From positions 1-64,000 of the forward strand of contig SIBG01000007.1 of assembly GCA_009695305.1 (NCBI GenBank): a DNA stretch of 64,000 bases, given 5' to 3'. How positions within the stretch are numbered: position 1 is the first letter of the stretch; each line of letters opens with the position of its first letter. This document shows positions 10,814 through 16,273 of the stretch, one piece after another. A program made the position numbers and the translations under genes. The notes under the pieces were generated by a model. The model saw nothing but the letters and a program-made list of their open reading frames with translations. It was not told where the DNA came from and searched no databases. This DNA comes from Opitutus sp. (GTDB taxonomy: Bacteria; Verrucomicrobiota; Verrucomicrobiia; Opitutales; Opitutaceae).

Positions 10814-10833
10814 AGGCGCACCCTATCCTGTTT

Positions 10834-13331: not shown

Positions 13332-14501
13332 ATGAAACTCAACCGCAAACTCCGCATGGGCATGATCGGCGGCGGCCGCGGCGCCTTCATCGGCTCCGTC
13401 CACCGCATGGCCGCCCGCCTCGATGGCGAAATCGATCTCGTCGCCGGCTGCTTCTCCTCCGATCCCGAAAAATCCAAAGCCTCGGGCGCCGATCTCTTTC
13501 TCGATCCCGCCCGCGTCTACTCCACCTACCAGGAGATGGCGCAAAAAGAGGCCGCCCTGCCCGCCGGCCAGCGCATCGACTTCGTCTCAATCGTCACGCG
13601 CAACAACACCCACGCCGCCGTCGCCAAGACGTTCCTCGAGGCCGGCTTCCACGTCATCTGCGACAAGCCCCTCTGCTTCACGCTCGCCGAGGGCCGCAAA
13701 CTTCGCGACGTCGTGAAAAAATCCGGCAAGGTTTTCGCGCTCACGCACAATTACACCGGCTACCCGATGGTGAAGGAAGCCCGCGAGTGGGTGCGCACCG
13801 GCAAACTCGGCAAGCTCATGAAGATCGTCGTCGAGTATCCCCAGGGCTACGCGATCACCGCGCTCGAAGCGAAGACCGTGAGCAAAATCGCCAACTGGCG
13901 CATGGATCCAAACGTCTCCGGCGTCTCCAACTGCATGGGCGATATCGGCACGCATGCCCACAACCTTGCCCGCTACATCACCGGCCTTGAGGTCGAGTCG
14001 ATCTGCGCCGAGCTCTCTACTTTCATCCCGGGTCGCCTCCTCGACGACGACGGCAACTGCCTCGTCCGCTTCAGCGGCGGCGTAAAAGGCATCCTCTTCG
14101 CCTCGCAGATTTCCAGCGGTGAGGAAAACAACCTCAACATCCGCGTCTTCGGCACCCAGGGCTCGCTCCAGTGGTTCCAGGAAAATCCGAACGAACTCAT
14201 CTGGAAAAAAGCCGACGCCCCCCAGCAGGTTTACCGCCGCGGGAATGGCTACGTCTCCGCCGCCGCCGCAGGCGCGACGCGCACGCCGTTCGCGCACCCC
14301 GAAGGTTTCATCGAGGCCTTCGCCAACGTTTATCGCAGCGCCGCCGTGGCGATCGCCGACTCAATTGAAGGCCGTAAAGCGCCGAAGGAAGGCTACGATT
14401 TCCCGACGATCACCGACGGCCTCGCCGGCATGGCGTTTATCGAGACCACCGTGAAGTCCGGCAAAGCCGGCGCGAAGTGGGTGAAGTTTCCGAAGCTGTA
14501 G
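13332..14501 (+). CDS. Gfo/Idh/MocA-family oxidoreductase
   Basis: The 389-residue protein opens with 'LRMGMIGGGRGAFIGSVHRM', the longer type of Gfo/Idh/MocA Rossmann start common in sugar clusters. The catalytic block is 'GFHVICDKPLCFTLAEG' near 105, with DKP in place of EKP, a known variation. 'NCMGDIGTHAHNLARYITG' near 200 supplies the Asp/His pair of the substrate domain. It starts 44 bp after its paralogue, suggesting one transcript and two successive redox steps or two substrates. A CT-rich leader precedes the ATG. Confidence 0.9.
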   Translation: MKLNRKLRMGMIGGGRGAFIGSVHRMAARLDGEIDLVAGCFSSDPEKSKASGADLFLDPARVYSTYQEMAQKEAALPAGQRIDFVSIVTRNNTHAAVAKTFLEAGFHVICDKPLCFTLAEGRKLRDVVKKSGKVFALTHNYTGYPMVKEAREWVRTGKLGKLMKIVVEYPQGYAITALEAKTVSKIANWRMDPNVSGVSNCMGDIGTHAHNLARYITGLEVESICAELSTFIPGRLLDDDGNCLVRFSGGVKGILFASQISSGEENNLNIRVFGTQGSLQWFQENPNELIWKKADAPQQVYRRGNGYVSAAAAGATRTPFAHPEGFIEAFANVYRSAAVAIADSIEGRKAPKEGYDFPTITDGLAGMAFIETTVKSGKAGAKWVKFPKL

Positions 14502-14528
14502 CCCCCATACCATCGCGCGCTCCCGCTT

Positions 14529-14657
14529 GTCATCGCGAGGAGCGCAGCGACGTGGCGATCCATCTCTCCACTCGCGCGCGCCAGCGCACCGCCCCTCCTC
14601 CTCCACCGTCCGCCCTCTCGTTTGTCATCGCGAGGAGCGTAGCGACGCGGCGATCCA
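14529..14657 (+). repeat. Two direct REP-like copies, 'gtcatcgcgagga' type
   Basis: Copies at 14529-14562 and 14624-14657, each 34 bp, begin gtcatcgcgaggagcg and end ggcgatcca; they differ at two positions. Both point toward the GIY-YIG gene that starts at 14736. More copies, some inverted, lie just beyond that gene. Read in one frame they would spell a 'CHREERSDVAI' peptide, a common cause of false gene calls. Confidence 0.85.
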
Positions 14658-14735
14658 TCACTCCATCCCCCCGCACGCCAGCGCATCGGCAATTCTCCCT
14701 TCCGTCCTCCCTTCACTCCCGCCGCGTCGCCACTC

Positions 14736-15062
14736 ATGCGTGTCACCGGCCACACCTACTGGGTCTACATCCTCGCGAGCCAGAAAAATGGCACCCTCTA
14801 CATCGGTGTGACCAACAGCGTCGAGCGCCGGACGTGGCAGCACCAACATCCGAAAAACGCCCAAACCTCCTCCGGTTTCACGCAACGCTACGGAGTCGAC
14901 CGCCTCGTCTACTTCGAAGATTTCGGTGACGTCGCGAATGCCATCGCCCGCGAAAAACAGCTCAAAGCCGGCTCGCGCGCCAAGAAGATCGCCCTGATCG
15001 AAAAAGACAATCCCGAGTGGCGGGACCTGAGCGAAGGTTGGTTCGATCCGCCAGCACTCTGA
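14736..15062 (+). CDS. GIY-YIG nuclease-domain protein (UPF0213/YhbQ-like)
   Basis: The 108-residue protein is a lone GIY-YIG domain: 'YWVYILASQKNGTLYIGVTN' holds the two tyrosine-type motifs, followed by 'SVERRTWQHQ' with the conserved arginine, and 'GVDRLVYFEDFGDVANAIAR' and 'EKQLKAGSRAKKIALIEKDN', which is the usual C-terminal part with the catalytic-type glutamate. Such single-domain proteins are presumed structure-specific nucleases. There is no partner domain and no signal peptide. It is embedded in a dense cluster of REP-like repeats on both sides, the last of which begins three bases after its stop. Confidence 0.9.
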   Translation: MRVTGHTYWVYILASQKNGTLYIGVTNSVERRTWQHQHPKNAQTSSGFTQRYGVDRLVYFEDFGDVANAIAREKQLKAGSRAKKIALIEKDNPEWRDLSEGWFDPPAL

Positions 15063-15065
15063 CTT

Positions 15066-15455
15066 GTCATCGCGAGCAGCGCATCGACCCCGCCTTTCCG
15101 CCCCCGCTTGTCATTGCGAGAGTTCGGAACCAACGGAACATGCGTGGTGGGGGCAATGATCCTACCGAGGCTTGTCATTGCGAAGGAGGCTTGCCGACTG
15201 TGGCACTACCTCTGGAAACGCCCGATGGATTGCCGCAGTCGCTGAGGCTCCTTCGCAATGACAAACAACGGCTGTTCATTAGCAGGAGCCTTAGGCGACG
15301 TGGCGATCCATCACCCCGCTCTCCGCGAGCCAGCGCATCGCCCCTACTCTTTCCTCCCCTAACTAACCATCGCGAGAGCACGAGAGCAGCAACGCGACCA
15401 TCCACCAAGAGTTTCAGCTGGATTGCCACGCCCGCCGAGCCGGGCTCGCAATGAC
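15066..15455. repeat. Cluster of REP-like singlets and REPIN-like doublets
   Basis: This fills the 428-bp gap before msrB. Forward starts are seen at 15066 (gtcatcgcgagcagcg), 15110 (gtcattgcgag), 15174 and, degenerate, 15369. Reverse copies end at 15262 and 15455. Two inverted doublets result: 15174-15262 (89 bp; the outer 15 bases gtcattgcgaaggag pair perfectly) and about 15369-15455 (87 bp). A partial 3' piece is at 15281-15313. I see no gene in this stretch. Confidence 0.8.
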
Positions 15456-15490
15456 AAACAAATGAGAGCGGCGCCCTTCTTCCTCTCCCC

Positions 15491-16069
15491 CTACTTCACC
15501 ACCCCACCCGCATTCTTCCCCACCCACGCCTCATACTCCTTCCTCGCCACAAATCGCAGCGACGCACTGTTGATGCAGTAGCGCAACCCACCCTGCGCGC
15601 GAGGTCCGTCGGGAAACACGTGTCCCAGATGCGCGCCGTCGACATTGCAGTGCGACTCCACTCGACGCATCCCGTGGCTCGTATCGACGGTCTCACCGAC
15701 GAATGCGTTCTCCATCGGCTTCGTAAAGCTCGGCCAGCCGGTGCCGCTTTCGAACTTGTCCCGCGAATCAAATAACGGCGTGTCGCTGCACACCGAAAAA
15801 TAAACGCCGTCCTCGTGGTGATCCCAAAACTCGTTTTGAAATGGCGGCTCCGTGCCCTGCTGCCGTGCGACGCGAAATTGCATCGGCGTGAGGAGTTTTT
15901 TCCACTCCGCATCGGTCCGCTGCACCGTCGTCTTGCTCATATCGATCACGACATTCGAGGGCAGGCCGCACGCGGACTTTTCCCCGGGCGCGCACGCGAG
16001 CGAATCCTTGGCGGCGTGAGTGCTGTCCGTTGCATCAGACTTGGCGGGAGCGGGAGTGGATTTGTTCAT
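15491..16069 (-). CDS. msrB: Peptide-methionine (R)-S-oxide reductase MsrB
   Basis: The 192-residue protein reduces methionine R-sulfoxide in proteins. The MsrB domain covers about 50-190: '[13 protein letters not shown]' near 110, '[10 protein letters not shown]' near 150 and the catalytic-cysteine block '[12 protein letters not shown]' near 165. The zinc-type CxxC pairs of many MsrBs are not present ('SVCSDTPLF' and '[12 protein letters not shown]' each keep one Cys), so it resembles the zinc-free subtype. The first 45 residues are Ala/Thr/Lys-rich with two extra cysteines and are not a signal peptide. It stands alone; the small ORF upstream on the same strand is uncertain. Confidence 0.92.
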
Positions 16070-16123: not shown

Positions 16124-16273
16124 TTAAGCGCGAATTGCATTATGGTCGGATGAGTTTGCGGCGGTCTTGTCAAATGCCCCGGGGCTTGCCCCGGGGATTT
16201 TTACTTTCATATCGGCCGCGACGCCGGCCACGACAGCCAACGCCAATAGCGAGAAGATCAGACGTGAAAGCAT
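16124..16273 (-). CDS. Possible small exported peptide (49 residues)
   Basis: An ATG at 16273 opens a 49-codon frame with a good hydrophobic signal segment ('MLSRLIFSLLALAVVAGVAA') and a short tail containing 'KIPGASPGAFDKTAANSSDH'. It lies on the msrB strand, 54 bp upstream of msrB. No clear Shine-Dalgarno site at the usual distance; a GAGGTGA lies 17 bases upstream. The 'PGASPGA' portion is the translation of a GC-rich hairpin repeat, so this may be the remains of a longer exported gene overwritten by a repeat. Confidence 0.3.
   Translation of the reverse strand: MLSRLIFSLLALAVVAGVAADMKVKIPGASPGAFDKTAANSSDHNAIRA
16176..16196. repeat. GCCCCGGGGC hairpin
   Basis: Two CCCCGGGG palindromes (16177-16184 and 16189-16196) separated by CTTG make a strong short hairpin, followed by ATTTTTA on the plus strand. 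It looks like a mobile intergenic hairpin or a plus-strand terminator, although no plus-strand gene ends here. Confidence 0.5.

Follow-up and report, generated by a model that had tools for sequence, protein, structure and literature searches.

RAYTs are thought to spread their REPs. The locus described here raises the question of whether an enzyme of another kind may be tied to such repeats in a comparable way. Within the window (the whole 64,000-nucleotide stretch of an Opitutus genome that was analysed), a small GIY-YIG nuclease gene sits amid a tight cluster of REP-like sequences. Below we consider whether gene and repeats belong together, how specific their connection is, and by what mechanism it could have arisen.

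The window locus

Gene and repeats together make up an inserted stretch at positions 14502-15490, bounded on the left by a Gfo/Idh/MocA oxidoreductase gene (13332-14501, plus strand) and on the right by msrB (15491-16069, minus strand). A separate palindrome, ccccggggcttgccccgggg, was observed upstream of msrB (16176-16197). The gene itself (14736-15062, plus strand), assigned from PF01541, family alignments and an AlphaFold2 model, encodes 108 amino acids. Its product matches PF01541 with 54.6 bits (E 1.3e-14, cut-off 22.6); this was the sole domain found, and the HUH (Y1_Tnp) criterion of REP/RAYT systems is not met. An alignment of 65 GIY-YIG family sequences has Y11, Y22, G24 and H36 invariant and R32 and E73 nearly so. 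The domain and these catalytic residues meet the definition of the GIY-YIG superfamily, nuclease activity itself being inferred from the sequence.

Eight to nine full or partial REP copies were counted around the gene. Two full copies precede it on the plus strand, copy 1 (TTGTCATCGCGAGGAGCGCAGCGACGTGGCGATCCATCT) at 14527-14565 and copy 2 at 14622-14660. Copy 3 (15064-15093, plus strand), which has an intact head and no tail, begins 2 bases past the stop codon and is followed by a copy reduced to its head (15108-15120, plus strand). Further downstream lie an inverted doublet with outward heads, predicted to form one long hairpin (15172-15264; -34.6 kcal/mol, z -8.5), an orphan tail (GCGACGTGGCGATCCATCA; 15295-15313, plus strand), and a second inverted doublet (15368-15457), in which the left arm is decayed and the right arm (15419-15457, minus strand) is well kept. 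An earlier, sequence-only reading of this DNA had described the cluster, with two direct copies upstream and singlets plus two inverted doublets downstream, and had likened it to a RAYT layout with a different enzyme. Both descriptions hold, and so does the likeness: the gene lies between REPs that are also dispersed genome-wide, and the enzyme is GIY-YIG, not HUH. The same reading had supposed that the repeats fold, which stands only for the first doublet; single copies (z +0.4 and +0.8) and the second doublet (z -0.5) fold no better than shuffled sequences.

The head motif TTGTCATYGCGA occurs seven times in the window, always inside 14527-15457 (931 bp). The whole assembly of 4.29 Mb (136 contigs, 87% complete) has 66 occurrences, against 0 matches for the reversed control. 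The 59 heads outside the window are dispersed, with no second cluster this large anywhere in the genome, and lead to an expectation of 0.013 heads per 931 bp (Poisson P about 1e-17). No repeats adjoin the second GIY-YIG gene of the window genome.

Association and matching of nuclease and repeat

Some GIY-YIG match was found in 28 of 100 genomes of the same family, and the subfamily of the window protein in far fewer: eight genomes besides the window's own carry a relative with at least 50% identity over most of the protein, some of them in multiple copies. These close relatives fall mainly into two groups. The KAGSRxKK relatives are flanked by window-like GTCATYGCGA...RATCCA repeats, and the KGWxRxKK relatives by a different repeat, the inverted pair GTCATTCTGAGCG...GAAGAATCCA, often no more than 60 bp away on each side. 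Elsewhere in the phylum, K[RG]WxRxKK relatives have another repeat again, GTCATYCCGAG...CGAGGRATCTC. Inverted repeats flank 11 of the 12 close relatives; among distant GIY-YIG genes, 2 of 17 in the family genomes score as flanked, neither by REP-like sequence, and 0 of 10 further ones elsewhere in the phylum.

By scanning GTDB genomes with the family alignment, we gathered relatives at 80 loci, distributed over Alpha-, Beta-, Gamma- and Deltaproteobacteria, Bacteroidetes, Verrucomicrobia, Firmicutes, Gastranaerophilales, Campylobacterota, Chlorobi, Chloroflexi, Nitrospira, Omnitrophota, Armatimonadota, candidate phyla and others. Flanking repeats were scored without reference to any motif, by locally aligning the 300 bp before each gene with the reverse-complemented 300 bp after it (score at least 32). 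The test was passed by 54 of 79 testable loci (68%), against 0.3% for random placements in the same loci, 15 of 775 control ORFs (1.9%) and 8 of 224 control ORFs gapped on both sides (3.6%). These arms consist of REPs, most of which point their (C/T)GTC head away from the gene and their CCA tail towards it; the median distance to the gene is 31.5 bp on the upstream side and 27.5 bp on the downstream side. In an independent set of IMG/VR contigs 25 of 32 genes are flanked. In all, the enzyme family is found between such repeats in at least a dozen bacterial phyla.

Two relatives were noted for their surroundings: one in Neisseria gonorrhoeae (NZ_CP119140) lies amid many dRS3 repeats, and one on a plasmid of Planktothrix agardhii has an MmeI-like restriction enzyme gene on one side and DISARM drmA on the other, amid TCTGAG-type repeats. 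Membership in a defence system was considered and rejected, the best PADLOC match (E 0.029) not being meaningful. A phage origin was likewise set aside: no relative was present in 50,697 phage records, and the IMG/VR matches may be host sequence.

Loci were then sorted both by repeat class and by a K-x-x-x-R-x-x-K motif C-terminal to the catalytic glutamate. In the window protein the motif reads KAGSRAKK (residues 77-84, codons at 14964-14987, plus strand), and across the family its sequence follows the repeat class. GCGA repeats occur with K[AGS]G[SN]R at 18 of 18 loci from eight groups, TCTGA...AAGAATC repeats with KGWxR at 9 of 10, and perfect hairpins with KxWxRxW at 44 of 47 by script pattern; two of the three misses in the hairpin class are slips of the pattern, since the proteins read KKWKRDWK and KKWNRAWK. 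Concordance between class and motif amounts to 71 of 72 classifiable loci, whereas 10,000 shuffles gave at most 47 and shuffles within taxa at most 61; a Mantel test restricted to between-group pairs gave r 0.23 (P 2e-4). The repeat classes were defined post hoc, after inspection of the data. For two later sets the rules were preset, with a broader GA-loop class in place of TCTGA: the IMG/VR set was concordant at 14 of 15 loci, all predicted as one class, and a set of paralogues elsewhere in the same genomes at 18 of 20, some of these genomes having GCGA and hairpin classes together. A small number of loci from the first set recur among these paralogues. In the hairpin class the matching extends to single residues, an N before the arginine going with C:G as the stem pair that precedes the GCG loop (11 of 12 loci) and a K with T:A (9 of 9).

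In the AlphaFold2 model of the window protein (pLDDT 90), helices 66-78 and 81-91 are joined by a turn at residues 79-80, which places the motif across an inter-helix turn; on this model the 77-84 turn is a plausible tip for reading the repeat. Fold neighbours of the model are UPF0213 proteins, Slx1 (Z about 7), I-TevI (1ln0, Z 5.9) and UvrC, and the middling Z values support just a shared fold. The only sequence matches in the PDB were 1zg2 and 1ywl.

Copy number varies with the gene as well. Family genomes with the matching gene have 66, 10, 50, 10 and 48 GCGA heads, and those without it a median of 1, with 10 or more heads in 6 of 95. For TCTGA heads the counts are 19, 3, 29, 43 and 25 where the matching gene is present; without it the median is 0 (7 of 95 high). 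Across 36 genomes of other groups, the medians for genomes with and without the gene are 16 versus 1 for GCGA heads (P 2e-4) and 49.5 versus 1 for TCTGA heads (P 6e-4), P values that take no account of relatedness. Genomes that bear repeats and no gene may have lost the gene or may be incomplete. Some genomes have several nucleases, with paralogues going with different repeat classes within one genome. The window genome contains 13 TCTGA-class heads (TTGTCATTCTGA), two of them single heads at window positions 10832 and 43489; they may be relics, since no TCTGA-class nuclease was found in this genome.

We regard a specific partnership between the nuclease and the REPs as strongly supported. The sequence-only reading had inferred a nuclease-repeat system and proposed that it be judged by whether repeats cluster beside such genes, whether their number depends on the gene, and whether they co-vary with the nuclease. 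When these checks were run, clustering was found, gene-bearing genomes proved far richer in cognate repeats than most gene-less ones, and repeat class and stem varied with a specific nuclease motif. Neither outcome that would have refuted the proposal, a lack of enrichment near the gene or equal repeat counts in genomes without it, was encountered. The reading of the locus as a nuclease-repeat system is supported in this respect; cutting of the folded repeat and RAYT-like spreading of the repeats are inferred.

Presence and absence at fixed sites, and possible mechanisms

At the oxidoreductase-msrB site, gene and repeats are also present in two other genomes (G061 and G561); in eight relatives, of which six belong to the same genus as G061, the site comprises only 77-129 bp with no gene and no repeats. 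In a further genome (G584, L343:766-1410), a Y1_Tnp (RAYT-like) gene was seen in the same gap. Within the genus g37, five genomes carry a REP-gene-REP unit that others lack; the gap in the latter can be as short as 36 bp (G036), and it measures 36-41 bp in G036 and G102. The unit separates sufB from sufC in Azospirillum lipoferum; three relatives have the two genes side by side. On a plasmid of Sphingobium sp. TomTYG74 (L188:968-1074), a REP-like sequence stands where related plasmids carry the gene; it resembles a hybrid of the two arms, left half from one and right half from the other, and is a possible scar. Exact ends and target-site duplications were not resolved in g37, at the Azospirillum sufB-sufC site, in the Sphingobium plasmids or at the window site, because the intergenic flanks are too diverged.

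In the absence of cleavage or mobility data, the best single mechanism is in our judgement that the nuclease mobilises the repeats, a view that we hold with moderate confidence ahead of homing, domesticated processing and chance association. The locus would then be a repeat-plus-enzyme element similar to REP/RAYT, composed of a GIY-YIG gene and the REPs recognised by its own nuclease. The enzyme is inferred to bind the REP, in single-stranded or cruciform form, via the 77-84 turn and to nick near the hairpin foot at the (C/T)GTC tag; such nicking might release or copy REP doublets together with the gene that they flank. GIY-YIG enzymes cleave DNA by hydrolysis and lack the covalent intermediate through which HUH transposases could join ends, so host repair would be needed to finish the insertion. 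REP doublets without a gene would represent non-autonomous derivatives. Against the mobilising mechanism stand the unresolved ends and duplications and the post hoc repeat classes; moreover, single GCGA-class copies fold no better than shuffles, and the 6 of 95 genomes with at least 10 GCGA heads have them without a GCGA-class gene.

The rival that survives best, although we consider it unlikely, is homing targeted to REPs, in which a double-strand break is made at existing REPs, repair from a REP-flanked donor copies the gene, and the REPs themselves spread otherwise. It would account for a gene between two REPs, the position occupied by the spacer of a doublet, and GIY-YIG domains do occur in homing endonucleases, I-TevI being a fold neighbour of the window protein. 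Homing predicts REPs at sites awaiting the gene, and one gene-less Sphingobium plasmid retains REP-like sequence, but most empty sites, including those at the window site and in G036 and G102, are REP-free.

Ranked next, and also improbable to our mind, is domesticated processing, by which a resident nuclease trims or resolves REP hairpins or cruciforms without any movement, the flanking REPs serving autoregulation or processing of its own gene. Specific matching without a direct sign of mobility is what it would lead one to expect; the Slx1-like fold neighbours are structure-selective, and the gene is held at one site in G000, G061 and G561. The patchy occurrence of the gene, its presence and absence at fixed sites and the paralogues with different repeat classes, however, give it the look of a mobile gene.

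Terminal inverted repeat (TIR) elements complicate the picture. The window genome has TIR elements of about 130 bp (TACCAACGTC ends, apparent 4-bp duplications) with many REP doublets inside, and 8 of 30 sampled heads of this genome lie in such a context. Members of the TIR family with a CGTC-like REP doublet core include L375, L377, L382, L383 and L386, among others; L380 and L391 have a different core instead. In another genome (G458, L363-L365), a GIY-YIG gene and REPs lie within a TIR element with ends GGTTCTTCCGG.../...CCGGAAGGACC and 8-bp target duplications, in several gene copies that are about 95% identical. Conventional transposition thus accounts for part of the spread, and we no longer take copy number by itself as proof that the nuclease drives mobility, near-identical copies lying in TIR elements. 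That small GIY-YIG genes and REPs merely accumulate together in intergenic or mobile junk, functionally unlinked, as these composite elements might suggest, is very hard to sustain when gapped control ORFs are flanked so much more rarely (3.6% versus 68%), other GIY-YIG genes are not REP-flanked, and matching at the level of class and residue, across phyla and within genomes, is left unexplained.

Comparison with known systems

REPs of the CGTC type occur widely among bacteria. Their superfamily was defined by Di Nocera in 2013 and includes the Neisseria dRS3 and Rickettsia RPE-4 and RPE-6 repeats (PMC3733652). These REPs are apparently without a dedicated transposase; tyrosine and other transposase genes had been examined, and GIY-YIG is not mentioned in the text of that survey (PMC3733652). 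Nucleases go unmentioned in a 2025 REP survey (PMC12306157). We found no earlier report of a link between GIY-YIG and REPs in open-access papers, most subscription papers being outside the search, and a literature search by repeat sequence showed nothing relevant among the 20 papers listed. NCBIfam has no family for the window protein, and Rfam gave no credible match.

Since the enzyme family lies between such repeats, and changes with them, in at least a dozen phyla, our analysis makes the GIY-YIG enzyme, by analogy with REP/RAYT, the best candidate for the missing partner of CGTC/TGTC-tagged REPs, dRS3 included. We lean, by no great measure, towards a broader proposal: an unrecognised class of mobile elements in many phyla, bounded by REPs and driven by a single-domain GIY-YIG enzyme whose short, swappable turn reads the repeat and which is the missing mobiliser of CGTC REPs including dRS3. 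If true, this would be a bacterial repeat-spreading system built on GIY-YIG, not HUH, chemistry. A matched nuclease family in many phyla makes the question of the CGTC REP transposase directly testable and offers a putative swappable code between residues and base pairs. It also suggests more than one origin of REP-plus-enzyme systems, with unrelated enzymes, as well as a function for the common anonymous annotation 'GIY-YIG nuclease family protein'.

In size and fold the window protein is like the single-domain GIY-YIG proteins of the UPF0213/YhbQ type, from which its family differs by the K-x-x-x-R-x-x-K turn that tracks the repeat; the more distant GIY-YIG genes are not REP-flanked. With homing endonucleases of the I-TevI type it shares the catalytic fold and possibly selfish spread. 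Unlike them, it lacks a separate DNA-binding domain; its gene belongs to no intron or intein, has inverted REPs at its borders and stands alone between two genes. The window repeat resembles CGTC REPs in its TGTC tag, its stem starting with AT and its unpaired CCA tail (GTC-ATCGC...GCGAT-CCA), as well as in its dispersal (66 heads) and in head-outward doublets in the window and elsewhere. Most repeats of the relatives fit an 8-bp stem with a 4-nt loop, whereas in the window copies an outer stretch of about 5 bp pairs around an irregular interior; the criterion of CGTC REPs (8-9 bp stem, 4-5 nt loop) is therefore not met, and we file the window repeat as CGTC-like, outside the four published families. 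The differences from REP/RAYT (TnpA_REP) systems are i) a GIY-YIG enzyme in place of the HUH tyrosine transposase, ii) a (C/T)GTC tag (TTGTCAT in the window head) and a CCA tail, RAYT REPs being GTAG-tagged, and iii) that no chemistry or movement has been shown for the GIY-YIG unit. The likeness lies in the architecture, in that short REPs, which also occur across the genome as single copies and inverted doublets, border a small nuclease gene, and in the matching of enzyme and repeat families.
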